Shown here: positions 326 through 49,703 of the stretch, piece after piece | How positions within the stretch are numbered: the first letter of the stretch is position 1 | Layout of the letters: every line of letters starts with the position of its first letter | From: an uncultured Burkholderiales bacterium | GTDB taxonomy: Bacteria; Pseudomonadota; Gammaproteobacteria; Burkholderiales; Burkholderiaceae_C | Direction of reading: 5' to 3' | NCBI GenBank assembly: GCA_903844825.1 | Contig: CAIMVC010000051.1 | Location: forward strand, 1-64,000 | Length of the DNA: 64,000 nt | The notes under the pieces: model-generated | Told to the model about the DNA's origin: nothing | Seen by the model: only the letters and a program-made list of their open reading frames with translations | The model's database searches: none | Translations under genes and position numbers: made by a program

Positions 326-1003
326 TCAGTCGCGGTGAAAGACGACGGCCTCTTCGATTAAAGCGCGGCCCACGCGGGCGGCATTGGCCGGCACGCCGGT
401 GTCCTCGTAACCGAAGGAAATGCCAAACATCAGCCGCTCGTCGGCGCCCAAGCCCAGGTGCTCGCGCACGATGGGCGGGTACAAAGCCAGGGCGCCTTGG
501 GCACAGGAGGCAATGCCTCGCGCCGTCAGGGCGAGCATCAGCGTTTGCGCGTAGATGCCCAGGTCGGTAGCTTCGCGTGCGTCAAAGGGTTGCTGCATGA
601 ACATGAACACCGCATGCGGCGCGTCAAAGCAAGCCTGGTTGCGCAGATAGGCGTCTTTTCTGGCCTGGATGTCTTTGCGCTCGACGCCCATCGCCCCATA
701 CAAGCGGGCGGCCGCATCATGTTGTCGTTCGCGGTAAATGCCATGGTACTTGCCGTCGGCCGGCCAGTCGGGTGCCAGCGGCTGGTCTGCCCTGGCAGCA
801 TCAACCAGCGCTGTGCACAGGCGTTTGAGCGCCGGGCCCGAGACCACATGGGGTCGCCACAACTGGACGTTGCAGTTCGATGGGGCCCATTGCGCCAGTG
901 TGAAGATTTCGTCGAGCTCGGCCCGCGGCACTTCCCGGGCTAAAAAGCCTCGCACGGAGCGGCGAGTTCGGATGGCGACGTCCACGCTCATCGCTGGTGT
1001 CAT
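326..1003 (-). CDS. nitroreductase family protein
   Basis: IRTRRSVRGFLAREVP...LAQWAPSNCNVQLWRPHVV, typical nitroreductase N-terminus. Confidence 0.85.
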   Translation of the reverse strand: MTPAMSVDVAIRTRRSVRGFLAREVPRAELDEIFTLAQWAPSNCNVQLWRPHVVSGPALKRLCTALVDAARADQPLAPDWPADGKYHGIYRERQHDAAARLYGAMGVERKDIQARKDAYLRNQACFDAPHAVFMFMQQPFDAREATDLGIYAQTLMLALTARGIASCAQGALALYPPIVREHLGLGADERLMFGISFGYEDTGVPANAARVGRALIEEAVVFHRD

Positions 1004-2040
1004 GGCTTACCTTTCGTCATGCTCAGACCCCGCTCGGCATAGGCGCGGGCCAGTCGTCGACCAACCCGCGCAGCATCGGGCAGGAAGCCGTTGCCAGCCT
1101 CACCGCGCGCGGCCACACCGGCTGAGCCGACGGCGCCACGGAACATGGCAAAAACCTGGTGAAACGTGCTCATCGGCTCGCTTGCCTGGGTCAGCTCATA
1201 GTAGCGCTGCAAGTAGGCGTCCTCGTCCGGAATGCCCAGTGCCGCCAGGTCAAGACCGAGCAGGCCGCCGTTCTCGTCGGGCGCCATGCGCCAAGCCTGG
1301 CTATTGAAGGCCACGTCTACCAGCGGATGGCCCAGCGTCGATAGCTCCCAGTCGAGCACGCCAATCACGCGCGCCTCGGTGGGGTGAAACATCAAATTTC
1401 CGATGCGGAAATCGCCGTGGCAAAGTCGCAATAACTCGCTGTCGGGCACGCGCTGGCTGAGCCAGGCCACGACTTGGTCCAGTGCCGGGTTGTCGTCGTC
1501 GCCTTTGCGGTACTGCGTGGTCCACTGTTCGGCCCAGCGCTTGAGCTGACGCGCGAAGTAATTGCCCGGGCGGCCATAGTCGCCCAAGCCCAGGGCGACG
1601 ACGTCGAGCCGATGGATGGCTGCCATGGTCGAGACCATGGCGTCAAACAGGGCGGTGCGCTCCTGCGCTGGCAAGCCTGGCGTCGAAAATTCATGAAATA
1701 CCCGACCCTGAAGCCGCTCCATCAGATAAAACGGCGTGCCCAGCACTTGCGGGTCGGCACAGTAGTGAAGCGGCTTGGGCACGGGAACATCGGTGTTTTG
1801 GAGCGCGCTGAGCACGCGGTACTCCCGGTCGATGGCATGGGCCGATGGCATCACCTTCCCTGCGGGTTGTTTGCGCAAAACCGCCTGCCAAAGGCCCCGC
1901 CGCACGAAGTAAGTGGGGTTGGACATGCCGCCTTGCGTGCGCTCGACCTGTAGCGGCTCGGCGCCCCCCAGCCAGCGATCAAGGTAATCGCCGAGCCGCA
2001 CGACGTCGAAGTCGATGGGCGTGCCGTTCGGCTCGCTCAT
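1000..2040 (-). CDS. APH/ACAD11-like phosphotransferase (putative hydroxyacyl-CoA kinase)
   Basis: Kinase motifs LCHGDFRIGNLMF and VIGVLDWELSTLGHPLVDVAF; overlaps ACAD gene by 4 nt. Confidence 0.85.
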   Translation of the reverse strand: MSEPNGTPIDFDVVRLGDYLDRWLGGAEPLQVERTQGGMSNPTYFVRRGLWQAVLRKQPAGKVMPSAHAIDREYRVLSALQNTDVPVPKPLHYCADPQVLGTPFYLMERLQGRVFHEFSTPGLPAQERTALFDAMVSTMAAIHRLDVVALGLGDYGRPGNYFARQLKRWAEQWTTQYRKGDDDNPALDQVVAWLSQRVPDSELLRLCHGDFRIGNLMFHPTEARVIGVLDWELSTLGHPLVDVAFNSQAWRMAPDENGGLLGLDLAALGIPDEDAYLQRYYELTQASEPMSTFHQVFAMFRGAVGSAGVAARGEAGNGFLPDAARVGRRLARAYAERGLSMTKGKP

Positions 2041-3290
2041 GAGTTGGCGTGTTTGCCGCCAAAGCCAAACAGGTACTGCGCGACGCGGCGCATCTGCACT
2101 TCCTCGGAGCCTTCGGTAATGCGATAGCGGCGGTGATGGCGGTAAATATGCTCGAAAGGCATGGCTCGGCTGTAACCGATGCCACCATGGGTTTGCATCG
2201 CGCGGTCAGCAGCTTCGCAGCACAAGCGGTTAGCACGGAAGTTGCAAATTGACACCATGTCGCTGATTTCCAGCGCATCCTGGCGGTCCATTTGCCAGGC
2301 GGTCTTGAAGATGAAGTTACGCACCATTTCGCACTCGGCATACAACTCGACCAGGGGAAACTGAATGGCTTGCTTTTTCGACAGGGGCTCGCCAAAGGCA
2401 ATCCGCTCGCGCGCATACTTGGCCGCTTGCTGGATGCAGTAGCGCGCGGCACCGGCACTGGCGGCCGCCTGGCGGATTCGGTTTTCGTGCACGAAGCGCT
2501 GGGCGATGACCAGGCCCTCTCCCTCCTTGTGCAAGATGGCGCTGTCGGGTACCCGCACCTCCTTGAGTTCGACCTCGGCATGGTCGCTGGGCATGTTGAA
2601 CGTCCAGTGGTTGTACAAAATCTTGTGACCCTCTGCGTTGGTGGGCACGATGAAGGCGGTGATGCCTTTAGCGTCGCCGGGCTTGCCGGAGGTACGGGCG
2701 AATACCAGGTTGCCGTGTGCCCGGGCGACCTGGCTGTTCCAGCGCTTCATGCCGTTGATGATCCAGTGATCGCCTTCTTTGCGCCCGGTTGTCTCGAGCC
2801 AGGTGGCATCGCTGCCGTGGTTGGGTTCGGTCAGCGCAAACGAGAGGTGCATCTCGCCGGTGATGATGCCTTCGATGTATTTTTTCTGCTCGGCGGTGCC
2901 GTAGGCCTCGATCACCGGAACGATGGGGAAGTTGCCGACGATGGACGACTCATCTTGCAGATCGTTGTGCAGGCCGAGGCCTTTGCCGGCCAAGTGTTCG
3001 CGGATGGCCGCCACCATCAGGTTGCTGGCTGCCTGCCCGCCACAAGACTTGGGCAGGCCCATGCGCAAGTGGCCGGCTTTGTCCGCGCGCCGCTCCATCT
3101 CGGTGATCAGTGCGCGCCAGTCGTCGCGTGGTCGGCCATCGTTTTCCCAATCAGTGCGGGCGTACTCGCGGCGATGGTCGAAAAAACGCATGTTGTCGTT
3201 CTCGAGCTGCAGCGGCTTAATTTCCTTGTCGATGAAGGCGTCAAGTTCGGCCAGTTTGGCCGTGATGTCGGCTGGAAGTTGAAAGTCCAT
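2037..3290 (-). CDS. acyl-CoA dehydrogenase (ACAD10/11-like)
   Basis: LSFALTEPNHGSDATWLET..., ...MQTHGGIGYSRAMPFEHIYRHHRRYRITEGSEEVQ; 417 aa. Confidence 0.9.
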   Translation of the reverse strand: MDFQLPADITAKLAELDAFIDKEIKPLQLENDNMRFFDHRREYARTDWENDGRPRDDWRALITEMERRADKAGHLRMGLPKSCGGQAASNLMVAAIREHLAGKGLGLHNDLQDESSIVGNFPIVPVIEAYGTAEQKKYIEGIITGEMHLSFALTEPNHGSDATWLETTGRKEGDHWIINGMKRWNSQVARAHGNLVFARTSGKPGDAKGITAFIVPTNAEGHKILYNHWTFNMPSDHAEVELKEVRVPDSAILHKEGEGLVIAQRFVHENRIRQAAASAGAARYCIQQAAKYARERIAFGEPLSKKQAIQFPLVELYAECEMVRNFIFKTAWQMDRQDALEISDMVSICNFRANRLCCEAADRAMQTHGGIGYSRAMPFEHIYRHHRRYRITEGSEEVQMRRVAQYLFGFGGKHANS

Positions 3291-3647: not shown

Positions 3648-5282
3648 ATGACCCTCGCTGCTTTTGACTCTGCCTTGCATGCGCAGCGCATGCGTGAGCA
3701 GGCCTGGTGGACAGACCGCAACTTCGATGAGCTGTTCGATCAAGCCGTCACCCAAACGCCGGACAAGACAGCACTGGTGGCCTACCGCACCGACCGCTCC
3801 GAAGTGCCGCGCCTGAGCTACGGTGAACTCGGTCAGGACGTGGCGCGCGCCGCGGGTGCACTGCGCGCTTTGGGGATCGGGCCCGGCGACATCGTGGCGG
3901 TGCAGTTGCCGAACTGGCTGGAGTTTGTACTGGTGGCTTTGGCATGCGGCCGTGTGGGCGCCGTGGTCAATCCTTTGATGCCGATATTTCGCGAGCGTGA
4001 GCTGGGCTATATGCTGGCTTTCAGTGGCGCCAAGATGTTGGTGGTCCCCAAGAGTTTTCGAGGTTTTGACCACGAAGCCATGGCGCAGTCCTTGCGCCCC
4101 CAACTGCCGGCACTGCAGCATGTGCTGGTCGTCGATGGGGCAGGGCCCAACAATTTTTCACGCATGCTGCAGCAAAGCACTTCGCCGGCCTTGCACCACG
4201 AGCCCGCGCTGGGGCTGCCGCCAGATGCGCTGGCGGTGCTGATGTTCACGTCTGGCACTACCGGTGAGCCCAAGGGCGTGATGCACAGTGCCAACACCTT
4301 GATGGCCTGCACCAACGCGCTGGGTGCCCGCTTCAAGATGGGGTCTGACGACGTGCTGCTGGCCTGCTCGCCGATGGGCCATATGACCGGTTATGCGGCG
4401 GTATTTCTGCAGTCGATCTTCCTGGGCGCGACGCTGGTTTTGCAAGATGTCTGGGAGCCGCGTCAGGGGGTCAACATCATGGTGACCGAGGGGGTGACCC
4501 ACACGGCGGCATCGACCCCGTTTCTGGTTGATATCAGCGACACCGTAGCGGCTGGTGCCAGCAAGCCGGCATTGCGCACATTTTTGTGTGGCGGCGCGCC
4601 CATTCCACCGGTGCAGATCGAACGGGCCGCCAGGGTGCTGAGCCTGCAGGTGTCGTCGCTTTGGGGGATGACCGAGTCCTTGGGCTCGACCCTGACCGAG
4701 CCGGAGCGGGCCGCCCAAAAGTCCTCGTCGACCGATGGGCGTGCGCTGCAGGGCGTTGAGGTGCAGGTGGTCGATTCCCTGGGCCAGCCCTTACCCGCCG
4801 GCCAGACGGGGCGCCTGATGGTGCGCGGCGCTCAGATGTTCCTGGGTTACTACAAGCGGCCAGACATCGTCACCTTTGATGCCGAAGGCTGGTTTGACAC
4901 GGGCGACTTGGCTTATGCCGATGCCGAGGGCTATATCCGCATCAACGGCCGTACCAAGGATGTGCTGATCCGCGGGGGTGAAAACGTGCCGGTGTTTGAG
5001 ATCGAGAGCCTGCTGCTCAAGCATCCTGCGGTGGCCGCTGCCGCGCTGGTGGGCTATCCGGACGCCCGCCTGGGTGAGCGCGGTTGTGCCTTTGTGGTGC
5101 TGCGCCCGGCCATGACGTTTGATCTAGCCGGTGCACAGGCGTGGATGGCTGAAAACAAGGTGGCCAAGCAGTATTGGCCAGAGCGTATCGAAGTGCTGCC
5201 GAGTTTGCCGGCAACACCGAGCGGTAAGGTTCAGAAGTTCGCTCTGCGCGAAAAGGCCAAGGCCTTCGGGGATGCAGCGTGA
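3648..5282 (+). CDS. AMP-binding acyl-CoA ligase (cyclohexanecarboxylate-CoA ligase-like)
   Basis: LMFTSGTTGEPKGVMH, WFDTGDLAYADAEGYIRINGRTKDVLIRGGENV, SGKVQKFALRE. Confidence 0.88.
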   Translation: MTLAAFDSALHAQRMREQAWWTDRNFDELFDQAVTQTPDKTALVAYRTDRSEVPRLSYGELGQDVARAAGALRALGIGPGDIVAVQLPNWLEFVLVALACGRVGAVVNPLMPIFRERELGYMLAFSGAKMLVVPKSFRGFDHEAMAQSLRPQLPALQHVLVVDGAGPNNFSRMLQQSTSPALHHEPALGLPPDALAVLMFTSGTTGEPKGVMHSANTLMACTNALGARFKMGSDDVLLACSPMGHMTGYAAVFLQSIFLGATLVLQDVWEPRQGVNIMVTEGVTHTAASTPFLVDISDTVAAGASKPALRTFLCGGAPIPPVQIERAARVLSLQVSSLWGMTESLGSTLTEPERAAQKSSSTDGRALQGVEVQVVDSLGQPLPAGQTGRLMVRGAQMFLGYYKRPDIVTFDAEGWFDTGDLAYADAEGYIRINGRTKDVLIRGGENVPVFEIESLLLKHPAVAAAALVGYPDARLGERGCAFVVLRPAMTFDLAGAQAWMAENKVAKQYWPERIEVLPSLPATPSGKVQKFALREKAKAFGDAA

Positions 5283-6040
5283 GCGCACGTCTGGCTGGTG
5301 TGGTGTGTGTGGTGACGGGCGCGGCCCGCGGTATCGGTCTGGCCATCGCCAAACGTTTCGCGGCCGAAGGCGGCCGCGTTGCCTGTCTGGATGTGAGCGC
5401 TGCGCGCCTGGAGCCTGCAGTAGCGCAGTTGCGGGCCGAGGGCGGTGATGCCCTGGGATTCGTTTGCGATGTGGGGCAGCGTGTCTCGGTGCAAAGCAGT
5501 CTGCAAGCCGTCGAGCGTGACTTTGCGGCGCCCGTGGGTGTGCTGGTCAACAACGCAGTGTGGGCGCGCTTTCAGCCGCTGGCTGAGATTGATGAGGACA
5601 GCGTCAATCGCATGTTCTCTGTTGGCCTGCAAGGCATGATCTGGACGCTGCAGGCGGCGGCGCCGCAGATGGCGCGACGCGGCGGCGGCAAGGTCATCAA
5701 TCTGTGCTCGACATCTGCCCTGCAAGCCATGCCCAACGCAATTGCCTATGCCGCGCTCAAAGCCGGCGTGCTCGGTCTGACGCGTGCCGCTGCGGTTGAA
5801 TTGAGTCCTCAAAATATTCGCGTCAATTCCATTGTCCCAGGCATGATCGGCACCCCCGCCTCGATCGCTCAGTTTGACGCGGCAACAATGGCCGAGCGCC
5901 TGGCGCAAATGCCACTGGGCCGGTTCGGTGAGCCCGAAGAAATTGCCGCTTTAGCGACCTTTCTGGCCAGTGACGAAAGCAGCTACATCCAGGGCGCCAG
6001 CATGGTCGCCGACGGTGGCTGGACCATCGCCTCCACATGA
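5279..6040 (+). CDS. SDR family oxidoreductase
   Basis: VVTGAARGIGLAIAKRFA, YAALKAG, MVADGGW; overlaps ligase stop by 4 nt. Confidence 0.9.
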   Translation: MSARLAGVVCVVTGAARGIGLAIAKRFAAEGGRVACLDVSAARLEPAVAQLRAEGGDALGFVCDVGQRVSVQSSLQAVERDFAAPVGVLVNNAVWARFQPLAEIDEDSVNRMFSVGLQGMIWTLQAAAPQMARRGGGKVINLCSTSALQAMPNAIAYAALKAGVLGLTRAAAVELSPQNIRVNSIVPGMIGTPASIAQFDAATMAERLAQMPLGRFGEPEEIAALATFLASDESSYIQGASMVADGGWTIAST

Positions 6041-6960
6041 AACTTCCGCTGCGCACTGGCGCGTCTGAACGGCAGCGTCTGGCGCTGGCGCTGGGCCTAG
6101 GTTTGATTGTCGTGTGGGCCAGCGCGCTGACGGTTCAAAAGCAGGTGTATGCGGTCATGTCTGTGCCCGGCTTTTTGCTGCTGCGCTATTGCCTGCTGCC
6201 GGCGTTTGCTGCGGTGCTGCTGTGCTGGCGCCATGGGCGCCATTGGCCGCGCTTGTCGGCGGCGCACTGGCGGGCGATGCTGTTGGCGGCGGTCCTGGGC
6301 CAGGTGCTGCATGTCTCTTTGGTCGCCCACGGCATTCATCGGTCCACGGCATTTTCAAGTGCGATCATCCTCGCCTGCGGTCCGGTGTGCACTCTGGTGA
6401 CCCTGAGCGTGAGCACGCGTCAGCGCCTGGGACTCAGGCAATTCGGCGGGGTCATGCTGGCCTTGATGGGCGTGCTTGTATTTTTGTCGGACAAGCTGCT
6501 GCGCGCCGATTGGTCGGGCACCTCGGGTGACTTGATGTTGCTGGCCGGTGTCGCTCTGTTTTCTATTTATTCGGTACAGGTGCAGCCGCTATTTGCCAGC
6601 CATGGCAGTCTCGAGACCATGTGCTACACCACCATTTTGGCCGCCCCGATAACCGTGGCGCTGAATTTTTTTGCCGGTGGATCCGTCCCTTGGGCAACTC
6701 TGTCAGTTCTTGATTGGCTGAGCTTTTTGTGGATTTCCCTGGTGGTCGCCTTTGGCGGCTGGATGCTCTGGGGCTGGGTGAGCGTGGTCAGGGGGGTGGA
6801 CCGGACTGCCCCCTTGATGTACCTGCTGCCCCCGATTGCTGGAATTTTTGCTTGGGCCATCTCGGGCGAGGTGTTCGGTCTGGCCAAACTCGCCGGTGCT
6901 GCGCTGGCCCTGGTGGGTGTGGCGATTTCGCAGCAGGGTGCGCGTGTAGCGGCCGGCTAA
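6037..6960 (+). CDS. EamA/DMT-superfamily permease
   Basis: About 10 hydrophobic segments, two-repeat DMT architecture; starts overlapping preceding stop. Confidence 0.8.
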   Translation: MKLPLRTGASERQRLALALGLGLIVVWASALTVQKQVYAVMSVPGFLLLRYCLLPAFAAVLLCWRHGRHWPRLSAAHWRAMLLAAVLGQVLHVSLVAHGIHRSTAFSSAIILACGPVCTLVTLSVSTRQRLGLRQFGGVMLALMGVLVFLSDKLLRADWSGTSGDLMLLAGVALFSIYSVQVQPLFASHGSLETMCYTTILAAPITVALNFFAGGSVPWATLSVLDWLSFLWISLVVAFGGWMLWGWVSVVRGVDRTAPLMYLLPPIAGIFAWAISGEVFGLAKLAGAALALVGVAISQQGARVAAG

Positions 6961-15456: not shown

Positions 15457-15942
15457 CTAGGTTTCCTGGCCGCTGGACATTTCCGCAAACAAGGGGCGCG
15501 GCGAGTTCTTCAGCTCAATTTCAATTTCCTGGCGCATGGCTAGGCGCAGTTGATCCTCGACCGCCTTCGCGGTGTCTGCTGGCAATGCCGCAGGCGCGGT
15601 GGCCAGCCAAGCCAGCAGTTGGCTGATGTCGCGGTTGGCATCATCGCGCTGGGCTTGCAGTTCGGCAGGCGTGATCGGTGACGGAGCCTGATGCTCGGCC
15701 ACTGCGGGAGCCCCCTCGATGCCGGACAGCAAGTCACGCACCGCGTTCAGCGCGCTGCACTGGGCTGAGACTTGCTGCGACAAAAAGTTAACCGACCAGT
15801 CGGCACGCGCCTTGAAGGTGTTGAGCAGGTTAATCACGCCAAACACCTGGCCGCGTGCGAACTCATCGTCCAACCGGGTCAGCACCTCGCTGCGCAAGGT
15901 GGCACACATGCCGTCGATCAGGCGGGGAAAAGAGTTGTTCAT
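15457..15942 (-). CDS. small predicted-helical protein of unknown function downstream of APH kinase
   Basis: 161 aa, overlaps kinase stop (4 nt); no recognised domain. Confidence 0.7.
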   Translation of the reverse strand: MNNSFPRLIDGMCATLRSEVLTRLDDEFARGQVFGVINLLNTFKARADWSVNFLSQQVSAQCSALNAVRDLLSGIEGAPAVAEHQAPSPITPAELQAQRDDANRDISQLLAWLATAPAALPADTAKAVEDQLRLAMRQEIEIELKNSPRPLFAEMSSGQET

Positions 15943-16982
15943 GCCTTGGCCTCAATGGTTTTTTCGAGTTGACGCAAGCAGGTGCCGATCTGGCTGCCCA
16001 TGGCCGGCATGCGCATGTCGGCGAAACGTCCTTCTTCAAAGCAGCGCGCTGCTGCCATGTGGGTGGCCGCGAGTTTGAGCAGGGAGAATGCACGGTAATA
16101 CTTGACCGACGCCATTGACACCTCAAAGCCGGCTTTTTCGCTGTAGCGTTCATAAAACCATTCGGGTTCTGTCAGGCGACAAAAATGTGGACTGCCACCC
16201 ATGTACATGGGCAGGCTGACCCAGCCGATGTCTTCGTGCGGATCACCCAGATGCACCAGCTCCCAGTCAAGAATGGCGGTGATCTGGCCATTTTGTTCAA
16301 GGAAGTTCCCGGTGCGGTAGTCACCATGCACGATGGCAACACGCGGCGCCGTTGGGCAATGGTCTTTGAGCCAGCGGATAGCCCACTGCGCGGCGGGGTA
16401 GGGGCGCATTGCCCAGCGTTGAATTTGTGACTCCCAAAACGCAACGTTACGCAGCGCCGCGTTGTGCACGTCGATGCCGGCGCCCATGCTGGCGATCGGC
16501 TGGTCTTGCCATGGGACACAGTGCAGCGCAGCCAGTGCGTCAATGAACTGCGCGCCCAGTTGCTTGCGCAAGCTCTCTTCAAGCGGTGGCGTGCCGGCGG
16601 GAACCCAGGGCACGACTGCAGCACCGGCCATTTTTTCGCTGAACAGGAACGGCGCGCCGAAGGTATCGCTCTCGTCACCCGCCCAGTAGGCCTTGGGTAC
16701 CGGGACCGCGCTGCCTTCGAGCGAACGCAGGGACAGGTACTCGGGCATAGCGCTGTAAGGTGCAAACAGCCCGTAGTCCGGGCCAAGTCGCAGGATCAGC
16801 TCGCTGGCGCCACCGGCTTCGGCAAGCCCGCCCTCAATCGGCACCAGGTAGGTCTTCCAGGAAAAGCCGACCGCGAATCGGGTCAGCGCGCCAACGCCTA
16901 CAGGATGGCCGGTCTGTTGCTGCAAGTAGGCGGCAATGCGTTCACGCAGCAGTGCGTCGTTGTTCAGTGGATCGTTGTTCAT
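15939..16982 (-). CDS. APH-family phosphotransferase (putative hydroxyacyl-CoA kinase)
   Basis: VAIVHGDYRTGNFLEQNGQITAILDWELVHLGDPHEDIGWV. Confidence 0.87.
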   Translation of the reverse strand: MNNDPLNNDALLRERIAAYLQQQTGHPVGVGALTRFAVGFSWKTYLVPIEGGLAEAGGASELILRLGPDYGLFAPYSAMPEYLSLRSLEGSAVPVPKAYWAGDESDTFGAPFLFSEKMAGAAVVPWVPAGTPPLEESLRKQLGAQFIDALAALHCVPWQDQPIASMGAGIDVHNAALRNVAFWESQIQRWAMRPYPAAQWAIRWLKDHCPTAPRVAIVHGDYRTGNFLEQNGQITAILDWELVHLGDPHEDIGWVSLPMYMGGSPHFCRLTEPEWFYERYSEKAGFEVSMASVKYYRAFSLLKLAATHMAAARCFEEGRFADMRMPAMGSQIGTCLRQLEKTIEAKA

Positions 16983-17569
16983 ATAGACCAGTCTTGGTGC
17001 CCGAGCTCATTGATGCTCACTACACCGATTTGGGTGCGCGTGCGCGCGCCCAGGCGTGTGATCGAGCCGTAACCCGGCGCAAAACGAGCCAGGTCGCCCA
17101 GGCCCAGCAAGTGTGACAGCACCGTGTTGATGACCATGCCGTGGGTGAAGACCGCGATCCGGCTGTGGATGGGCAGCTCAAGAGCTGTGTTCAGTGCAGC
17201 CAGCACGTCAAGGCGAAATGCCACAGGGTCGGCGCCGAGGTAGCGGATCGGGTCTTGCAAGAAGCGCTGCCACTCCTCAGCGCCCAGAGACCGCAGCGTT
17301 TCGATGGATCGGTAGCGCGTGGCGCTGCGGTCTGCCTCGGCCCAACCTTCGATTCGCGAGATGCGCAGCCCCGTCGCCTGCGCCAGTGGTTGTGCTGTTT
17401 GCCAGGCGCGTTGCATCGGACTGCTGATGATGTGGGTGATGGTCTCGCGCGCCAAAACCCGGGAGACGGCTTGCGCGTGGCGCTGCCCGTTGGCATTGAG
17501 GCCAGGGTCGTTGGGGCGCGCCTCGTCGGTTTCGTCGGGCTGGCCGTGACGCACCAGGATCAGGCGCAT
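16979..17569 (-). CDS. histidine phosphatase family protein
   Basis: MRLILVRHGQPDETD (RHG motif), FTHGMVINTVLSHLL; 4 nt overlap with kinase start. Confidence 0.85.
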   Translation of the reverse strand: MRLILVRHGQPDETDEARPNDPGLNANGQRHAQAVSRVLARETITHIISSPMQRAWQTAQPLAQATGLRISRIEGWAEADRSATRYRSIETLRSLGAEEWQRFLQDPIRYLGADPVAFRLDVLAALNTALELPIHSRIAVFTHGMVINTVLSHLLGLGDLARFAPGYGSITRLGARTRTQIGVVSINELGHQDWSI

Positions 17570-18024
17570 GGCCTGAGCCTGTGCATGGACTTGCCTTCCA
17601 GTGACATCACAATTTGATGGTGCTGATTGAGCACTTCCTGGCGAATCGTGACGACGCCGCGGTCGGGTTTGCTTTGCGAGCGCCGGGTCTCCAGCACGCT
17701 GGCGCGCATGCGCAAGGTGTCGCCCGGGCGCACCGGCAGCAGCCAGCGCAGCTGGTCGACGCCGGGCGAGCCCAGCGCAGACTCGGTGGGAATAAAGTGG
17801 TCGCACATCATCCGCATGGCCACGGCGGTGGTCATCCAGCCACTGGCAATCAGACCGCCGTAGGGTGAGGCTTTGGCAGCTTCGGCGTCAACATGAAAAA
17901 ATTGCGGGTCGTACTGGCGCGCGAAGCCAACCACTTCGGCCTCGCTGACCTGATGCGCGCCGAACTCGAAGACCTCGCCTGTTGCATAGTCCTCGAACCA
18001 TCGCTCCTTTAGCGGGTTCGTCAT
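17560..18024 (-). CDS. MaoC family dehydratase (single hot-dog)
   Basis: RWFEDYATGEVFEFGAHQVSEAEVVGFARQYDPQFFHVD...GGLIASGWMT. Confidence 0.87.
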   Translation of the reverse strand: MTNPLKERWFEDYATGEVFEFGAHQVSEAEVVGFARQYDPQFFHVDAEAAKASPYGGLIASGWMTTAVAMRMMCDHFIPTESALGSPGVDQLRWLLPVRPGDTLRMRASVLETRRSQSKPDRGVVTIRQEVLNQHHQIVMSLEGKSMHRLRPCA

Positions 18025-18028: not shown

Positions 18029-18898
18029 TTAGGCGTCAGACTGCAAAAGTTTGGGCAGTACCGAGCGGTGAAATCCGTTGAATTCAGTGCTGCGCCGTGC
18101 GGGCTGCAGCTTCCAGGTGCTGCGGGCGTTTGGCGCACCGCCGTCCACGCGCAGGCAACTGCCAGTGATGTAGCCAGCCGCCGGCGAAAGCAAATAGGTG
18201 ATGGCCGCTGCGATTTCCGATTCGGTGCCATAGCGCTGCATGGGCACGGTGGGCGGGAACTCAAGAATCTTGGCCTTGACCTCGGGCGGGTAGGTGTCAA
18301 AGCCGCTAGAAGCGATGCCGCCGGGTGCGACAGTATTGACGCGCACGCCGTCGGCCGCCCACTCGCAGGCGGCGGTCTCGCTCAGGGTGAACATGCCGCC
18401 ACGAGAAGCACCCGAGTGGGCGAAGTCAGGCCAGCCGTGCCAGATGTCGGCAATGATGTTGACGATCGCGCCGCCGTTGTCCCGCATCCAGCGGTTGTAG
18501 GCCTCGCGCATAAAGATAAAGCCACCGGTGAGGTTGTTGCGAACCACCGCCTCAAAGCCTTTGGTCGAAATGGTGTGCATGGCCGTGCGATATTGACCGC
18601 CCGCGTTGTTCACCAGGCCGTCAAGGCGCCCATGAGCGGCCAGTACACCGTCGATGACAGCAATGACTTGCGCCTCTTCCCGGATGTCGCAGACGAAGCT
18701 GCTGACCAGACCGCCATCTTCCAGGATTTCGGCTTTGACTTTTTGCAGCTTGTCATCGTTACGCCCGACGATGACCACCTGTGCGCCCAGCGCGGCCAAC
18801 TCGTGCGCAGTGCAGCGGCCCAGACCGCTGCCGCCGCCAGTGATGATGATGACCTGACCCTGAAACAGGTCAGCGCGGAAGACGGAACGGTAAGACAT
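18029..18898 (-). CDS. SDR family oxidoreductase
   Basis: VIIITGGGSGLGRCTAHELAALGAQVVIVGRN, NNAGG. Confidence 0.88.
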   Translation of the reverse strand: MSYRSVFRADLFQGQVIIITGGGSGLGRCTAHELAALGAQVVIVGRNDDKLQKVKAEILEDGGLVSSFVCDIREEAQVIAVIDGVLAAHGRLDGLVNNAGGQYRTAMHTISTKGFEAVVRNNLTGGFIFMREAYNRWMRDNGGAIVNIIADIWHGWPDFAHSGASRGGMFTLSETAACEWAADGVRVNTVAPGGIASSGFDTYPPEVKAKILEFPPTVPMQRYGTESEIAAAITYLLSPAAGYITGSCLRVDGGAPNARSTWKLQPARRSTEFNGFHRSVLPKLLQSDA

Positions 18899-18918
18899 GC
18901 AGGACTCCAAAAAAACAA

Positions 18919-20067
18919 TCAGTACTGGATGGCGACCTTGCCGATGCGCTCGCGGGCGATGATCAGCTTCATGATCCCGGCTGTGCCGTCGCCAATTTCA
19001 AGGCCCGAGACGTCGCGCATGCGCTGCTGGTGTGGCAAGTCCTTCGTCCAGCCGTAGTGACCCAGCGTCAGGATGCATTGGTGAATGATGTCGAACGCAA
19101 AACGCGGGCCCATCCACTTGCACATGGCGGCTTCCGAAACGTGGGGTTGACCCGCATCGCGCAGTGCCAGGGTGTGCAGGCAGAGCTGGCGGATGGCGGC
19201 AATGTGGGACTCCCCCTCGGACAGTGGAAAGGTCACGCCTTGGAACTGGCCGATGGGCCGGCCAAAGGCCTGGCGCTCCTTGGTGTAAGCCCAGGCTTCG
19301 TCGAGCGAGGCTTGCGCGGCACCACAGCACTGCAGGCCGATCAAGGCGCGGCTGTAGTCAAAGCCCTGCATGACCTGGGTGAAGCCCTTGCCCTCATCCC
19401 CAAGACGGTTACCGACGGGGATGCGCAGGTTGTCAAAGAACACCTGGCCGCGGCCGATGATGGCGCTTCCCAGATCGTCAAAGCGGGTTGTCGACAGGCC
19501 CGGCGTGCCCGCTGGAATGAAGAAGGCCGAGACCCCCTTGGCGCCTTGCTCGGGGGTGCCGGTGCGGGCAAAAACCACGTAGGCATCGGCCCGGTCTGCG
19601 AAGGTAATTGACGTCTTCTCGCCGTTGAGCACGTAGTGGTCGCCGTCCAGGCGCGCCTTGAGCTGCAGGTTGCTGGCGTCTGAGCCGCCACGGGGTTCGG
19701 TCAGGCAAATGGCTACGATGGCATCGCCGCGAACCATCTTCGGCAGCCATTCGTTCTTGATAGCCTCGCTGGCGTGGCCTAGCAAAATGGCGCCATTGAG
19801 CGAAATGCCGACCGGCACAGCGCTGATGTTGAAGTCGCCGTAAGCCAGTTCCTCGGCGATCAGGCCGGCGGTCACGCCGTCCAGACCCATGCCGCCATAC
19901 TGCTCGGGCAGGTCGATGCCGATCAGGCCGAGTTGGCCCATTTCGCGCACCAGGGCGCGGTCCAGAATGCCGAGCTTTTCGCGCTTTTGGTAGTCGGGTA
20001 GCAGGCGCTCGCGGGCGAAGCGGCGGGCCGTGTCTTGCAGGGCGCGTTGGTCATCGGTCAAAACCAT
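18919..20067 (-). CDS. acyl-CoA dehydrogenase
   Basis: ICLTEPRGGSDASNLQLKARL, RDVSGLEIGDGTAGIMKLIIARE. Confidence 0.9.
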   Translation of the reverse strand: MVLTDDQRALQDTARRFARERLLPDYQKREKLGILDRALVREMGQLGLIGIDLPEQYGGMGLDGVTAGLIAEELAYGDFNISAVPVGISLNGAILLGHASEAIKNEWLPKMVRGDAIVAICLTEPRGGSDASNLQLKARLDGDHYVLNGEKTSITFADRADAYVVFARTGTPEQGAKGVSAFFIPAGTPGLSTTRFDDLGSAIIGRGQVFFDNLRIPVGNRLGDEGKGFTQVMQGFDYSRALIGLQCCGAAQASLDEAWAYTKERQAFGRPIGQFQGVTFPLSEGESHIAAIRQLCLHTLALRDAGQPHVSEAAMCKWMGPRFAFDIIHQCILTLGHYGWTKDLPHQQRMRDVSGLEIGDGTAGIMKLIIARERIGKVAIQY

Positions 20068-21038: not shown

Positions 21039-22154
21039 TCAAATCGGGGGGTGCACTTGCACGGACGGGTAGTGGGCATAGCCCTTGCCAACGCCGTACT
21101 CCATGATGCCGTAGCCGACGTCGTCGCCGTCGCGCACTTCGATGATCTGGTCTGCCAGGGTGCGTGTTGTCTTGCGGATGTCCGGGTCGGTCAGGTCCCA
21201 GCACTCGGTCTCGCTGTAGAACTTCCCCTTGAAGTCGCCCTGAAACCAGCCCTTGAGTCCGCCATACAAGCCGCCTTTGAGGAAGTACCGGGTGGGCAGG
21301 GTGCGTATCGATACCGTGCGCTGGCGGCCATCGGCAAATGTGAGATGCAAGTCGCCACTGGCCAGCGACTGACCGAGCGGGTCGTCGTGCCATTGCAGGT
21401 TGTGCGTGACATCAGTTAGCTGGTTGCGGCTGGAGACTCGGTTGCCCAGGGTAAAGACCTCCTCGCCCGAGATGTAAATCTTGTCGCCAGGCGCACGTTC
21501 CTTGAAGAAAATATGCAGGCCGCGATTTTTGAACTGCGCCGTGGTCCAGGCATAAAGGAAGGGCGGGTAGAAGGTCAGCGGAGGGTGGGTCTCATCGGTG
21601 CGCATTTCCGATCGAACGCCCCAGGAATGGTCGCGCTGGCCGTACCAGTTGTCGGCATCCAGGTTGATGCGTTTGCCGTCAAATGCCAGCCAGCCAGCGT
21701 AGCGGCCCAACTGCTGCGCGCGGGCCATGTTTTCGGTGACGCGACCGTCGCGCCGTCGCATATGCGGGGTCTCTTCGTGCGGTGTCATGGAGGCCAGAAA
21801 CTCGATGTCAAACTCTATGCCCGACGCGTTGGGGCCAAGCACCAGACGATGGCGTTTGAGCCCTTCGAGCACGATGATCTGCAGCGGCCCCACGGTGGTC
21901 AGCAGCGGGTCGGGGCGGAGTTGGCGCGAAACGCGAAAGTTCCACTGCCTGCCGGCGATTGCCACGCCTGCGAACGCGTCCATCACGTTTCGGTTGGGGT
22001 GGTAGCCCAGGCCGATATCGAAGATGACATTCAGGCTGTCAATCGGGTGGCCGGTGTACCACAGGCGCTCCATCCAGGCGGGATCGCTGTTGTCTATCTG
22101 GTCGAAGGTGGTGGGCAACTGATGCCCGATCAGGTCGTCTTGTCCGGTCAGCAT
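21039..22154 (-). CDS. CrtC/DUF7064-like (hydroxyneurosporene synthase-fold) protein
   Basis: LDADNWYGQRDHSWGVRSEM motif, beta-rich 371 aa; related to 48700-49692. Confidence 0.6.
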   Translation of the reverse strand: MLTGQDDLIGHQLPTTFDQIDNSDPAWMERLWYTGHPIDSLNVIFDIGLGYHPNRNVMDAFAGVAIAGRQWNFRVSRQLRPDPLLTTVGPLQIIVLEGLKRHRLVLGPNASGIEFDIEFLASMTPHEETPHMRRRDGRVTENMARAQQLGRYAGWLAFDGKRINLDADNWYGQRDHSWGVRSEMRTDETHPPLTFYPPFLYAWTTAQFKNRGLHIFFKERAPGDKIYISGEEVFTLGNRVSSRNQLTDVTHNLQWHDDPLGQSLASGDLHLTFADGRQRTVSIRTLPTRYFLKGGLYGGLKGWFQGDFKGKFYSETECWDLTDPDIRKTTRTLADQIIEVRDGDDVGYGIMEYGVGKGYAHYPSVQVHPPI

Positions 22155-33775: not shown

Positions 33776-33997
33776 CGTGAACAGGCTATTTCATGAGTTC
33801 AACTTACAAGTCAAACCATGGAGATCCTCATTGCTGAAAATGCGTCTTTTAAACCGAACATAGAAAATTTTTATAAATTAGGTGAGTTTGACTTATTAAA
33901 AGAAATGCTCTAAGCTGTGACGCAGCGGAGTTGGCTTGAGCTTTGATGGCGTCCGCAGGTAGCTTTCGTGCGGTGGCTAGAACGGCAAGAGGTGGCA

Positions 33998-35179
33998 ATG
34001 CAAAATATACTGACCAAGTTTGCCCAAGCGGCAACACGTCCGATGGACTATGCCAAGCAGTGGAAACGGGACACCGGGGGACGGGTGATAGGCATCTTTC
34101 CGATGCATTTCCCGGCTGAGTTGGCGCATGCGGCAGGCGCCTTACCGATTGTTGTGCAGGAAGACGAAGAGCCCATCACCATCGGCCAGAGTCAGGTTTT
34201 TAGCTTCTATTGCGGTTACAACCGTAGCCTGATCGACCAGGCTCTGCGCGGCGAGTTCGATGTACTGGACGCCATTTTGTTCGGCGACCATTGCGTGCAA
34301 CTTCTGGGTACGGCCGATGTGATTCGCGCGCACTTGCCGGGCAAGCCGATCTTGTTTAATCAGTTGTGCTCCATCCTGGATGCCGATTGGGCGATGGAGG
34401 AGACCCGCGCTACGTTTAGGCAACTCTGGCTAGAACTGGAAACGCTTACCGGCACCAAGATCGATGAGGCGAGCGTGAACGCCTCTATTCGCCTGTTCAA
34501 TCGAAATCGAAGCCTCATGCGCAGGATCTACGATTTGCGGCGAGCGGGCGAGACCACCTTGTCTGCGCGAAACATGCAGCACATCGTCAAGTCCTCCATG
34601 GTCATGGACAAGGCCCAACACACGGCTTTACTTGAGGAATTGGTGACTGGTCTGGCGCAGGCAGCACCCAAGGCGCGTTCGGTCCGGGTGTTCTTATCCG
34701 GTCATCTGTGCCATGCGCCCAAATTAAGCCTGCTTGACCTTTTTGAGGACAGTGGATGCACGGTGGTGGACGACGATCTTTACACCGGGTACCGGTTCAT
34801 CTTTGCCGACATCGACGAGGCGGGAACAGCCATTGATGGATTGGCGTCTTGGTACCTGACGCGCAGCCAAAAGGTGCCGTGCCCCACCCGTGCTGTCAAG
34901 GGGCTCGATTGGGAGCAGTACTTGCTGCAGGCGGTGGCGCAGTCGCGCGCGCAGGGATTGATCATCCTGATGGCCAAGTTCTGCGAGCCGCATATGTTCT
35001 TCTATCCAGAAATCAAAGAAGCCTTTGAAAAAAATGGCATCCCGCATCTCTTGGTTGAGACCGAGCACGAAGGCGTAGCGCTCGAGTCGCTCAAGACGCG
35101 CGTCGACGCATTTGTCGAACTTGTCGGGCGCCGCTCTTCGGCCGAAATCGCCTCCCGCGCAGGCGCAACTGCTGTTTAA
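33998..35179 (+). CDS. BcrC/HgdB-like subunit, benzoyl-CoA reductase / 2-hydroxyacyl-CoA dehydratase family (pair 1)
   Basis: IGIFPMHFPAELAHAAGALPIVV, VPCPTRAVKG, MAKFCEPHMFFYPEIKEAFEKNGIPHLLVETEHE. Confidence 0.85.
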   Translation: MQNILTKFAQAATRPMDYAKQWKRDTGGRVIGIFPMHFPAELAHAAGALPIVVQEDEEPITIGQSQVFSFYCGYNRSLIDQALRGEFDVLDAILFGDHCVQLLGTADVIRAHLPGKPILFNQLCSILDADWAMEETRATFRQLWLELETLTGTKIDEASVNASIRLFNRNRSLMRRIYDLRRAGETTLSARNMQHIVKSSMVMDKAQHTALLEELVTGLAQAAPKARSVRVFLSGHLCHAPKLSLLDLFEDSGCTVVDDDLYTGYRFIFADIDEAGTAIDGLASWYLTRSQKVPCPTRAVKGLDWEQYLLQAVAQSRAQGLIILMAKFCEPHMFFYPEIKEAFEKNGIPHLLVETEHEGVALESLKTRVDAFVELVGRRSSAEIASRAGATAV

Positions 35180-35196
35180 CAACGAGAGACAACACC

Positions 35197-36570
35197 ATGG
35201 AATCGACTCAAAATATTTTGACAGACAGGCCGTCAGCCAGCCCAGTGTTCGGTAATGGAGAGCGGGCCAACCGCCTCAAAAGTACACGATTCGGTGGCAA
35301 ACTCGTGAACGATTACTGGGAGAACCTGTTCCTGGCCAAGGAGCAGGGTAAGAAGGTGATCTGGTACAACGGCACCTACATCCCGCCGTTCTTCCATTCG
35401 CATGATGTGGCCTGGGTTCATGGCGAGGCGTGGTCGGCGAACCTGGCCGCCCGCCATGAAGAAATCCCGGCGCAGCAGGCCGGTGAGCAGCGAGGTTACG
35501 ACCGCGAGCTTTGCTCCTACGCTCGCACCCACATCGGCCAGGCACTGCTGGACCGGGAAAAGCTCCTCAATGGCACCTCGGGCATCAATCCCAATGGCGC
35601 CAGAGCCGAGCTGATGCGCAAACTGCCCATGCCCGACATGATCATCAACGCTTACCCGTACTGCAGTACGGGTCAGCAATGGGATGACATCACTTACCGC
35701 ATGTTCGGCAAGAAGATACCCATGTTCACCATCCAGATCCCGCTGCTCTGGGGTGGGCGGCCTGATGCGGGCTACCTACGCGGCTCGGAATGGCGGCAGC
35801 GCTCCAAGTACGTCGCCGACCAGCTGGTTGCCATGACGCGGTTCATGGAGGAGCACACCGGACGCAAGTTCGACTTTGACCGGCTTGGCGAAACCATGGG
35901 CTTTGTCAAGCGGGCCGCACAGCTGCGACTTGAGGCAATGGACCTTTGCACAGCAACACCTTCTCCGGCGAGTTTCTTTGATTGGATCGTCAGCATTGCG
36001 CCGGTCAATTTTCTGCCCGGCGACCAAAATCTGGTGACCTACTTCGAAGGCGTCAAGGCCGAAATCGAGCAGCGTATCGCCAATGGTGAGGGCGCAGTCA
36101 AGGACGAGAAATACAGGCTGTTCTTCGATGGCATGATGAACTGGAACAAAGTTGGCTGGCTTGCCGACAAGTTCGCCGCCGTCAACGCCTGCGTGGTCGC
36201 TGGGCGCTACACCCACATGTCGTTTTGGCAAGAGCCAGACCTGATTGACCTGAAGAGCCCGGTACTCGGAATGGCGCAAAACTATTTGGTGTGTCCGAAC
36301 AACCACGGCGCTCCGATCATGATCGGAGAGATCGAAAAGATCTGCGACAAGTTCAATATTGATGGGATGGTTATGCATGCCTCGCGCACCTGCCGCGGCA
36401 TGTCCAACTCGCAGTTCCTGATTGCTGATTCCGCCAAGAAGAACGGCCGTCAGGCGATGTTCTTTGAGGGTGATGTGGCCGATGAGTCCTTTTATAAAGA
36501 CGAGCTCCTCAACACGCGTCTTGAGGCCATGATCGAAACCATGGATGCTCGTCGGCGGATCGTAGCCTGA
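35197..36570 (+). CDS. BcrB/HgdA-like subunit, same family (pair 1)
   Basis: LCSYARTHIGQALL, INAYPYCSTGQQWDDIT, HASRTCRGMSNSQFLIAD, FFEGDVADESFYKDELLNTRLEAMIETMDARRR. Confidence 0.85.
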   Translation: MESTQNILTDRPSASPVFGNGERANRLKSTRFGGKLVNDYWENLFLAKEQGKKVIWYNGTYIPPFFHSHDVAWVHGEAWSANLAARHEEIPAQQAGEQRGYDRELCSYARTHIGQALLDREKLLNGTSGINPNGARAELMRKLPMPDMIINAYPYCSTGQQWDDITYRMFGKKIPMFTIQIPLLWGGRPDAGYLRGSEWRQRSKYVADQLVAMTRFMEEHTGRKFDFDRLGETMGFVKRAAQLRLEAMDLCTATPSPASFFDWIVSIAPVNFLPGDQNLVTYFEGVKAEIEQRIANGEGAVKDEKYRLFFDGMMNWNKVGWLADKFAAVNACVVAGRYTHMSFWQEPDLIDLKSPVLGMAQNYLVCPNNHGAPIMIGEIEKICDKFNIDGMVMHASRTCRGMSNSQFLIADSAKKNGRQAMFFEGDVADESFYKDELLNTRLEAMIETMDARRRIVA

Positions 36571-36649
36571 ACTCTGCCCAGTGGCACAACAACACCCCGG
36601 CATATTTCCGCTGGAAATTTTTGTATCTACCAACTCGGAGACCCATGAC

Positions 36650-37819
36650 ATGTCTGATGCGCAAGACGCCATCGCCGTATTGACCCGCATTGCGCAAGAG
36701 CCCCGTGCCTACGCAGAGAATTGGAAGCGCAACCATCAGCGCAAAGTCATTGGCACATTTCCGATGAATTTCCCCGTCGAATTGGTGCATGCAGCGGGTG
36801 CCTTGCCTGTCGTGGTGCAGGACGACCGTGCCCCTATCACGCTCGGCCGTACCCTGATGTACGAGTTCTACTGTGGTTACGCCAGAAGCTTGACAGACCA
36901 GGCCGCGACCCGAAAGCTTGGAGTTTTCGACGCTTTCTTCCTGGTTGATCATTGTGTTGCCTTGCTAGGCGCAGTGGATGCGATCCGGTTCGAGTTGCCG
37001 GAGCAGGCCGTCTTCCTGGCGCAGTACACGGCGTCTATGGACGAAGCGTGGACACCGCCGCAGGTGCGCGAGAAGGTGCAGTCGCTGCAATCGCAGCTTG
37101 AGGAGTTGTGTGGAGAGAGCATCTCGAAAGAGGCATTGGCCCGCAGCATTCGCCTGTTCAACCGCAACCGCCAGCTACTGCGGCAGGTCTACGACCTGCG
37201 CCGCTCTGGCCGGACGCAGATCACGTCGGCGCAGATGCAGATGCTGGTGAAGTCCAGCATGGTGATGGACATTGAGGAGCACACCGCGATGGTCTCTGGC
37301 CTGCTCGCATCGCTGCAAGCGCAATCTGACAGCAATCCGGCGCTTGTTCGCCTGCACCTGTCGGGACATTTTTGTCACGGACCGCGGCCGGAGTTGCTTG
37401 ACATCATCGAGTCCTGTGGTGCGGTGGTGGTCGATGACGATCTGTTTACCGGATTTCGCCATATATCGACTGACGTTGCGGAAACCGGAGATCCGCTGGA
37501 CGCACTCACCCGCTGGTATTTTGACCGTAACAACAACGTGCCCTGTGCCACGCGAGCGCAAAAAAACGTGGACTGGGAGAGCTACTTGCTGCAGTCGCTC
37601 AAAAACAGTGGCGCGGCCGGGGTGGTCATTCTCATGGCCAAATTCTGTGAACCGCACATGCTTTACTACCCTGAATTGCGCAAGGCACTGCTTGGCAGCC
37701 AGGTACCGCACCTGCTGATAGAGACAGAGCACGAGGGACTTCCCGCCGAGTCGATCCGGGTCCGCATGGAAGCATTCCTTGAGCAGATTCGTCGCCCTGC
37801 CAATGCGGCCGCAGCATGA
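36650..37819 (+). CDS. BcrC/HgdB-like subunit (pair 2)
   Basis: IGTFPMNFPVELVHAAGALPVVV, VPCATRAQKN, MAKFCEPHMLYYPELRKALLGSQVPHLLIETEHE. Confidence 0.85.
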   Translation: MSDAQDAIAVLTRIAQEPRAYAENWKRNHQRKVIGTFPMNFPVELVHAAGALPVVVQDDRAPITLGRTLMYEFYCGYARSLTDQAATRKLGVFDAFFLVDHCVALLGAVDAIRFELPEQAVFLAQYTASMDEAWTPPQVREKVQSLQSQLEELCGESISKEALARSIRLFNRNRQLLRQVYDLRRSGRTQITSAQMQMLVKSSMVMDIEEHTAMVSGLLASLQAQSDSNPALVRLHLSGHFCHGPRPELLDIIESCGAVVVDDDLFTGFRHISTDVAETGDPLDALTRWYFDRNNNVPCATRAQKNVDWESYLLQSLKNSGAAGVVILMAKFCEPHMLYYPELRKALLGSQVPHLLIETEHEGLPAESIRVRMEAFLEQIRRPANAAAA

Positions 37820-37852
37820 CATCAACCCTTTGATACCTCGGAGCATCACCTT

Positions 37853-39214
37853 ATGTCACATTTATTGGAACCCTCCCCCGCGCGGTCAACTGCAACCTCT
37901 GAGCGCGCAGCCTTGTCTAACCGCCTCTTGAGCACCAGGGACGGTGGCAAGATGGTCAAGGACTATTGGGACCGGATCTTCACGGCGCGCGAGCGCGGAG
38001 CGCAGGTTGTCTGGTACAACGGCGCGGCTTTGAATCCCATATTCCAAGCCGCCGGCATTGAGTGGTGCCATGGTGAGGCCTTTGGCGCTCGGCTGGCGGC
38101 GATGCACCTGGAAGCGCCTGCACAACTGGCCGGGGAAGAGTACGGATATATCAACGAGCTCTGCTCCTACGCACGCACGACGCTGGGCTGTGCGGTGCTC
38201 ACGCAGCGCGGAGCAGAGTATGAAAGTGAAGGTGGCATGGTCGACCGGGACACACTGGCCGGCCGCCTGCCCCCGCCCGACTTTTTCGTCAACGCATATG
38301 CAGGCTGCAGCACGGGCCAGCAGTGGGACGAAATCTCCTACCGGCTGTTTAAAAAGCAGTTGCCTTTCTTCAAAGTCTCGTACCCGCTGCTGTGGGGCAA
38401 TAAGCCCGATGCGGGCTATCTGCGCGGTCAGGAGTGGGAAAGCGCCTCGCGCTATGTGGCGAGTCAGTTGCACAAACTGATCGAGTTCCTGGAGGTGCAG
38501 ACCGGCCGAAAGTTCGACTGGGAACTGCTGCGTGAATCGATGTATTACATCAAGCGCGCGTCGGAGTTGCGTTTGGAGGCCATGGCCTTGTGCCGATCCA
38601 AGCCGGCGCCCGCCACCTATTGGGACTGGATCGCTTGCATTGCCCCGATCAATTTTTTACCTGGCAATCAGGCGCTGGTAGATTATTTTGCAGGCGTCAA
38701 GAAGGAAATTGAACAACGCCTGAAGGACGGTGTCACGGCACTGCCAAACGAGCGTTATCGATTGGCCTTCGATGGCATCATGAACTGGAACAAGGTCGGT
38801 TGGTTGGCCAACAAGTTTGCTCAGCATGACGCGGCGGTCATGGTCGGGCGCTACACCCACAATTCGTTCTGGCATGAACCCCAACTCATCGATGTGGACG
38901 ACCCTATTTTAGGAATGGCACAGCACTACCTTCTGTGTCCGTCCAATCACAATGCCAAAACCATGGGCGAGCTATTGCTCAGGGATTGCGAGAGTCATGG
39001 CATCGACGGAATTGTGTTTCACGCGACGCGGACTTGCCGCTCCTTCACCAACGGACAAATGGTCATGTCGCAGATGGCGCAGCGCGCCGGGATTCAGACC
39101 ATGTTTTTCGAGGGCGATGTGGCAGACGCTGCGTTTTACAAAGATGCCATGCTCGAAAGCCGGCTTGAGGCGATGCTCGAGACCATCGATGTGCGACGTG
39201 GTCAGCAGCGCTGA
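37853..39214 (+). CDS. BcrB/HgdA-like subunit (pair 2)
   Basis: ELCSYARTTLGCAVL, CSTGQQWDEISYRLF, HATRTCRSFTNGQMV, FFEGDVADAAFYKDAMLESRLEAMLETID. Confidence 0.85.
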   Translation: MSHLLEPSPARSTATSERAALSNRLLSTRDGGKMVKDYWDRIFTARERGAQVVWYNGAALNPIFQAAGIEWCHGEAFGARLAAMHLEAPAQLAGEEYGYINELCSYARTTLGCAVLTQRGAEYESEGGMVDRDTLAGRLPPPDFFVNAYAGCSTGQQWDEISYRLFKKQLPFFKVSYPLLWGNKPDAGYLRGQEWESASRYVASQLHKLIEFLEVQTGRKFDWELLRESMYYIKRASELRLEAMALCRSKPAPATYWDWIACIAPINFLPGNQALVDYFAGVKKEIEQRLKDGVTALPNERYRLAFDGIMNWNKVGWLANKFAQHDAAVMVGRYTHNSFWHEPQLIDVDDPILGMAQHYLLCPSNHNAKTMGELLLRDCESHGIDGIVFHATRTCRSFTNGQMVMSQMAQRAGIQTMFFEGDVADAAFYKDAMLESRLEAMLETIDVRRGQQR

Positions 39215-39331: not shown

Positions 39332-40129
39332 ATGAACCAAGTGGCACCGCGTCAGACTTTGCAACTCAATGAGGCGAGCGTGCTGATCACCGGCGGGACC
39401 TCGGGTGTTGGTCTGGCCACTGCGATCGACTTTGCCCGGGCGGGTGTGCCTCGGATTGGTCTGAATGGCCGCGATGCAGCACGTGGAGCGGCCGCTTGCG
39501 CGGCAGTTCTGGCTGAGGTGCCTTCGGCGCGGGTAGAGTTTTTCGGGGGCGATTGCAATGATGGGAGCCAAGCGCGTAGCGTCTGCGAGGGGGCGCGTGC
39601 AGCGTTCGGCAGCGTCGACGTCTTAGTCAATTCCACGGTCGGACCCTACGGGCCGAAGTTGTTTCACAACATCGAATTTGAGGAGATCCATGCCATGGTC
39701 ATCAAGCAACTGATGGCCCCGATCCTGACGAGCCGGATGGTCTGGCCCTGGATGCGCGAGCGCAAGATGGGTGTCATCGTCAACATCGCCTCGGACGCGG
39801 GAAAGGTTGCCACGCCGGGTGAGTCGGTGCTCGGCGCTGCGATGGCCGGGATCATCATGTTTTCCCGTGGACTCGCCATAGAGGGCAAGCGGGACGGTAT
39901 CCGCGTGAACTGCCTGACGCCTTCCATCATCGAGGGCACGATCACCTATGGAAAAGTCATGGCCGACGAGTTTTCCGGAAAGCTTTTTGGCAAGGCGGTC
40001 AAGATGGCCCAGCTCGGTGTCGTGCAGCCTGAGGATCTGGCGGCCATGATCGTTTTTCTGGCGGGACCGCACGGTGCCAGGCTCACCGGCCAGGCGATCA
40101 GCATCAATGGCGGAATTTCAGCGGCTTGA
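39332..40129 (+). CDS. SDR family oxidoreductase
   Basis: VLITGGTSGVGLATAIDFARAG; C-terminus GARLTGQAISINGGIS. Confidence 0.85.
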   Translation: MNQVAPRQTLQLNEASVLITGGTSGVGLATAIDFARAGVPRIGLNGRDAARGAAACAAVLAEVPSARVEFFGGDCNDGSQARSVCEGARAAFGSVDVLVNSTVGPYGPKLFHNIEFEEIHAMVIKQLMAPILTSRMVWPWMRERKMGVIVNIASDAGKVATPGESVLGAAMAGIIMFSRGLAIEGKRDGIRVNCLTPSIIEGTITYGKVMADEFSGKLFGKAVKMAQLGVVQPEDLAAMIVFLAGPHGARLTGQAISINGGISAA

Positions 40130-49692: not shown

Positions 49693-49703
49693 GGGGGTGG
49701 GTA

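Follow-up and report, generated by a model that had tools for sequence, protein, structure and literature searches.

A kinase of the ACAD10/11 family conserved beside an ordinary-type acyl-CoA dehydrogenase in an alicyclic-acid-like gene cluster

It was only in 2024-2025 that ACAD10 and ACAD11 were found to act on a 4-hydroxyl group and take it away, by phosphorylation followed by a flavin-assisted elimination in which the role of the flavin is unsettled. At the start of the stretch of DNA analyzed here (64,000 nt, hereafter the window), a kinase gene and an acyl-CoA dehydrogenase (ACAD) gene overlap, which raises the question of whether this pair carries out the same chemistry. A preliminary description of the locus had supposed that it does, with an ACAD10/11-LvaA-type kinase phosphorylating a hydroxyacyl-CoA and an ACAD10/11-like partner eliminating the phosphate.

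Results

A three-gene chain conserved in two classes of Proteobacteria

Both open reading frames were found where the preliminary description had placed them, sharing an ATGA stop/start (Table 1), and the kinase motifs that it had read, HGDFRIGN and DWE, are present, the latter as LDWE. That description was silent on the order of the genes and on a third member of the chain. Transcription on the minus strand runs from the ACAD through the kinase to a nitroreductase-family flavoenzyme, and the kinase/nitroreductase junction is also a 4-nt overlap. The ACAD is therefore upstream of the kinase in this chain, whereas the kinase comes first in ACAD10/11 and in bacterial ACAD11-type pairs. The host genome is represented by a draft assembly (464 contigs, completeness 88.9%).

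Table 1. Coordinates and annotation of the three-gene chain and of cluster genes in the window
Feature	Position	Strand	Basis or remark
Acyl-CoA dehydrogenase (ACAD), 417 aa, gene 1 of chain	2037-3290	-	ORF; three Pfam ACAD domains
APH-type kinase, 346 aa, gene 2 of chain	1000-2040	-	ORF; Pfam APH, 5.8e-49
Nitroreductase-family flavoenzyme, gene 3 of chain	326-1003	-	Pfam
ACAD/kinase junction, 4-nt stop/start overlap (ATGA)	2037-2040	-	
Acyl-CoA ligase, divergent from chain	3648-5282	+	Best curated model: cyclohexanecarboxylate-CoA ligase
SDR oxidoreductase, conserved-cluster member	5279-6040	+	
EamA-type permease-like gene (putative label)	6037-6960	+	
SDR oxidoreductase	18029-18910	-	Homologue (74%) flanks detached kinase on QY30 plasmid
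Second ACAD, cyclohexanecarboxyl-CoA-dehydrogenase-like	18919-20067	-	530 bits, cut-off 575
SDR oxidoreductase	40074-40964	+	Homologues before trio in 8/10 relatives; 77% on QY30 plasmid
CaiB-type CoA-transferase or racemase	54818-55975	-	Homologue near trio in 9/10 relatives

Chance adjacency of the ACAD and the kinase could be ruled out, since the same kinase type lies directly downstream of the ACAD in all 10 close relatives, with overlapping start and stop codons in most. This set consists of nine loci from a scan of GTDB genomes, chosen for an ACAD identity of at least 75% (Variovorax, Rhodoferax, Xenophilus, Rubrivivax, Bradyrhizobium jicamae, two Mesorhizobium, Roseicyclus and one unclassified MAG), plus a tenth from genome G116; it spans Alpha- and Betaproteobacteria, and its ACADs are 75-90% identical to that of the window. 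Genes in the GC-rich relatives were called by codon-position scoring and tblastn. The complete ACAD-kinase-nitroreductase trio is kept in 9 of the 10. As far as the flanking DNA covered extends, which limits the counts of neighbors, the trio is accompanied by homologues of the CaiB-type gene (9/10), of the SDR at 40074-40964 (8/10, before the trio), of the second ACAD (7/10, beside the trio) and of the ligase (7/10). Given this tight conservation in the core clade, the product of the kinase and the substrate of the ACAD may be one and the same compound.

An ACAD10/11-LvaA-type kinase

Among solved structures, the kinase comes closest to 3dxp (292 bits) and to 8v3v, the kinase domain of mouse ACAD11 (223 bits), with which its homology extends over the full length. 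Placed in a tree of 36 kinases, it falls inside the ACAD10/11-LvaA-type clade (support 100/99), where it forms a 100/100 group with its ten orthologues, and the other APH types of the window and its relatives fall outside this clade. The catalytic and CoA-contact residues of the ACAD11 kinase have been described, the CoA-contact arginines from a model (PMC12440821). The window kinase keeps the catalytic pair as D210 and N215 (D220 and N225 in ACAD11) and the CoA-contact arginines as R164 (R176 in ACAD11) and R72, which is beside the α-C Glu (E73). For the last of these, PMC12440821 names R86; in the deposited ACAD11 sequence, it is the Arg adjoining the α-C Glu that aligns with R72. The predicted model of the kinase (mean pLDDT 76.6, with low confidence in the catalytic loop) was not used as evidence. 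Judged from the mouse ACAD11 match and the retained residues, the kinase belongs to the ACAD10/11-LvaA family, as the preliminary description had it, and looks intact.

APH-fold kinases act on many substrates, and the window holds two more APH genes of different subtypes (15939-16982 and 49689-50930). Both facts would suit a housekeeping or salvage kinase for a small molecule other than a CoA thioester, present in the operon only since the pathway yields that molecule. We consider this improbable, because the kinase lies inside the ACAD10/11-LvaA clade and retains the Arg residues modeled to touch CoA in ACAD11, and because many of its cluster partners are CoA-thioester enzymes. An aminoglycoside resistance kinase was also considered and rejected, the APH(3') match being 44 bits against a curated cut-off of 205.

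The two additional APH genes have close partners of their own. The second APH kinase overlaps a histidine-phosphatase gene (16979-17806) and a gene for a 161-aa protein (15457-15942) by 4 nt each, and all three genes of this trio (15457-17806) are conserved in G116. The third overlaps by 4 nt a gene for a 354-aa protein (region 48628-50930) that has no NCBIfam match.

The dehydrogenase has ordinary active-site residues

As for the ACAD, its nearest solved sequences are those of ordinary MCAD-type enzymes (1ukw, 176 bits, compared with 106 bits for ACAD11). In a tree of 51 sequences picked among the loci collected, window-type ACADs form a separate 100/100 clade, and the HCMR (ACAD10/11) clade is its sister (97/93), a relation that rests on this tree. 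The grouping with ACAD10/11 predicted earlier was thus not recovered, the window ACAD being in a clade next to that family and not inside it. The predicted structure (mean pLDDT 87.6) resembles both types: the best match by E-value is the MCAD-type 1ukw, whereas the top TM-score among the matches listed belongs to 4hr3, an ACAD11-type enzyme (443 bits against the host HCMR ACAD), with human ACAD11 (2wbi) also high. Within the clade, the core, kinase-associated ACADs depart from the other members at 27 conserved positions, and the core-specific residues include basic ones (H148, R190, H228, R283 and one at position 222).

In ACAD11, R626, H634 and R637, which are near the catalytic D753, hold the 4-phosphate and are common to ACAD10/11 and LvaC only; replacing them by Ala or Leu gave the most disruptive substitutions, with a build-up of the phospho-intermediate (PMC12440821). 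Mutation of the corresponding Asp in ACAD10 led to loss of its ACAD activity (PMC11342911). When the window ACAD is aligned with the ACAD11-type enzyme of the host, these four positions are occupied by F266, Q274, A277 and E393, and the generally conserved R631 of ACAD11 is retained as R271. The same pattern (F or V, then Q, then A/S/G/Q, then E) is found in all 86 window-type ACADs, that is, the window enzyme and 85 relatives, whereas the ACAD11-type members sampled have R, H, R and D without exception. The HCMR phosphate-holding motif is therefore absent from the window ACAD, which shows the features of an ordinary ACAD: the ACAD domains, a catalytic Glu (E393) at the D753 position and R271. 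We conclude that it is a relative of ACAD10/11 outside that family, with the active-site residues of an ordinary dehydrogenase.

Because the defining residues tested are absent, among them those found essential by published mutagenesis, phosphate elimination by the ACAD10/11 mechanism is not supported, and neither is the role of phosphate-eliminating partner that had been proposed for this ACAD. To judge from these residues, the known two-step reaction of ACAD11 is probably not what the pair does; if it did eliminate phosphate, this would require an active-site solution other than that of ACAD10/11.

The genuine ACAD10/11 system sits elsewhere in the host genome: contig C114 encodes one HCMR ACAD (480 bits to ACAD11), contig C103 a second one and contig C126 an LvaA-type kinase. 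The window ACAD is only 30% identical to the host HCMR ACAD. Across the bacterial family, an ACAD11-type ACAD is present in 106 of 121 genomes, directly after its kinase in many of the loci examined, and the kinase type found in most of these genomes is about 43% identical to the window kinase. Counting the host, 6 of 151 genomes encode a window-type ACAD (E below 1e-100). A levulinate operon was rejected as an identity for the chain, which contains no HCMR ACAD.

The dehydrogenase clade also occurs without this kinase

The two genes are not always adjacent. Rhodobacteraceae bacterium QY30 carries, on its plasmid CP023455, an ACAD of 81% identity that runs straight into the nitroreductase gene with no kinase between them, and the kinase (60% identity) is found about 62 kb away, between two SDRs that are 77% and 74% identical to those at 40074-40964 and 18029-18910. 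Among more distant loci of the ACAD clade, which come from the best 80 matches of the scan and so do not amount to a survey, 42 of 71 have no APH gene in the flanks covered; in some loci with distant members (60-65%), there is an APH kinase of another subtype accompanied by DUF6285. Since the adjacent kinase is missing from these 42 loci and from the kinase-free gene order on CP023455, the chemistry of the ACAD does not require it. Much of the window cluster is present on CP023455, a 124-kb plasmid (loci L185 and L189) of a paddy-soil bacterium, and the pathway can thus be plasmid-borne.

The 62 kb that separate ACAD from kinase on CP023455 would also fit a purely positional association, in which the two are neighboring catabolic genes with no common intermediate. 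We regard this as very unlikely, considering that the kinase, even where detached, has SDRs from this cluster on both sides and that the trio is kept in 9 of 10 relatives from two classes.

The clade's frequent occurrence without a kinase also counts against a reading closer to the original proposal, namely that the kinase phosphorylates a hydroxyacyl-CoA and the ACAD eliminates the phosphate to an enoyl-CoA, as ACAD10/11 and LvaA/LvaC do, using other residues to hold the phosphate. A related phospho-acyl-CoA reaction of this kind is possible given the sister relation of the clade to ACAD10/11 and the top TM-score, among the matches listed, of its model against an ACAD11-type structure; the kinase is of the right family with its residues intact, adjacency and overlap are conserved in the core clade, and the core ACADs carry 27 clade-specific changes. 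Nevertheless, the counterparts of R626, H634, R637 and D753 are all missing, mutants in these residues are defective (PMC12440821, PMC11342911), and genuine ACAD10/11-type ACADs are available on C114 and C103. On balance, we find such chemistry rather unlikely.

The surrounding genes resemble an alicyclic-acid cluster

The ligase is similar to the AliA enzyme of the ali/bad scheme (PMC9795900), and the second ACAD to AliB. Neither attains the curated cut-off for equivalog status: the ligase scores 688 bits against 792 for cyclohexanecarboxylate-CoA ligase, and the second ACAD 530 against 575. Because both are below these cut-offs, an alicyclic substrate is a matter of resemblance. The assignment to a pathway draws on these two matches and on the conserved clustering across Alpha- and Betaproteobacteria.

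The window also encodes three pairs of proteins resembling the B and C subunits of 2-hydroxyacyl-CoA dehydratase/benzoyl-CoA reductase, together with one activase (33968-39214 and 56202-59795). These subunits score far below the curated cut-offs for the known enzymes, and their role in this pathway may be a reduction or dehydration driven by ATP.

Discussion

Gene order, overlaps, conservation, family membership and the presence or absence of the residues named above can be read directly. The class of substrate, the compound that the kinase acts on and the order of steps are what we infer from homology and gene order. The evidence supports the view that a kinase of the ACAD10/11 family acts on a hydroxyacyl-CoA within an alicyclic-acid-like pathway, next to an ordinary-type ACAD and a flavin reductase, and we lean toward a function in which this kinase works with an ordinary-type desaturase in the catabolism of alicyclic (cyclohexane-type) acids. 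The operon would encode steps in the breakdown of an alicyclic carboxylic acid, which is activated by conversion into the CoA thioester. Using ATP, the kinase would phosphorylate a hydroxyl on a CoA-bound intermediate, probably made by the SDRs or hydratases of the cluster. The ACAD, with FAD and its catalytic Glu, would take hydrogen from between C2 and C3 of an intermediate of the pathway and pass the electrons to ETF, and it would not hold the phosphate in the ACAD10/11 manner. Any loss of phosphate would follow desaturation, for instance vinylogously, or take place on a different cluster enzyme.

A more specific version gives the nitroreductase a part. The trio would perform ACAD10/11 chemistry with three enzymes: the kinase would act on the γ-hydroxyl of an alicyclic acyl-CoA, C2-C3 desaturation with vinylogous loss of phosphate would yield a dienoyl-CoA, and the nitroreductase would reduce it, thereby doing the reduction proposed for the internal FADH2 of ACAD10/11. 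We think it improbable that all of this holds.

Comparison with known systems shows what is shared and what is not. Animal ACAD10 and ACAD11 likewise combine a homologous kinase with a flavoenzyme partner of ACAD fold. The window differs from them in having two proteins, an ACAD from the sister clade, and a nitroreductase gene and an alicyclic-acid-like cluster alongside. LvaA/LvaC of Pseudomonas putida and the bacterial pairs in which a kinase precedes an HCMR ACAD (L117-L132 and others) share with the window separate kinase and ACAD genes and the same kinase family. However, LvaC-type ACADs have the HCMR motif and the Asp, and the window ACAD has neither, a comparison made via ACAD11 and bacterial HCMR ACADs. 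The ali/bad cyclohexanecarboxylate pathway of Rhodopseudomonas palustris and Aromatoleum has in common with the window cluster an AliA-like ligase, an AliB-like dehydrogenase, SDRs and enoyl-CoA hydratases, but its five genes are aliA, aliB, badK, badH and badI, and the window kinase, first ACAD, CaiB-type gene and nitroreductase are outside that set (PMC9795900). A literature search for an APH kinase and ACAD cluster in alicyclic, terpenoid or Variovorax catabolism returned nothing relevant.

The trio thus joins a kinase of the ACAD10/11 family to a conserved neighbor from the sister ACAD clade, one with the ordinary Glu and no phosphate pocket, and to a separate flavin reductase. It bears on whether the loss of phosphate requires the ACAD10/11 pocket, and through it the catabolism of ring acids might prove to include a dehydration driven by ATP. 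It also cautions that the ACAD10/11 reaction should not be transferred to just any kinase-ACAD gene pair.

Operons combining APH, DUF6285 and ACAD genes (L023, L024, L025 and L190, a Sulfitobacter plasmid) are similar in pairing an APH kinase with an ACAD from the clade of the window enzyme (57-61% identity), but their kinase belongs to a different APH subtype (26-30% identity to the window's) and DUF6285 is added. None of the papers searched mentions DUF6285. DUF6285 is fused to an APH kinase in L022 (8707-10122) and lies beside one in L190 (27160-28541), with ACADs of the window clade adjoining.

The window further encodes a protein of the Rv3169 family (21039-22154; 320 bits against a cut-off of 150), which has a 78% identical homologue in the Xenophilus locus L031.
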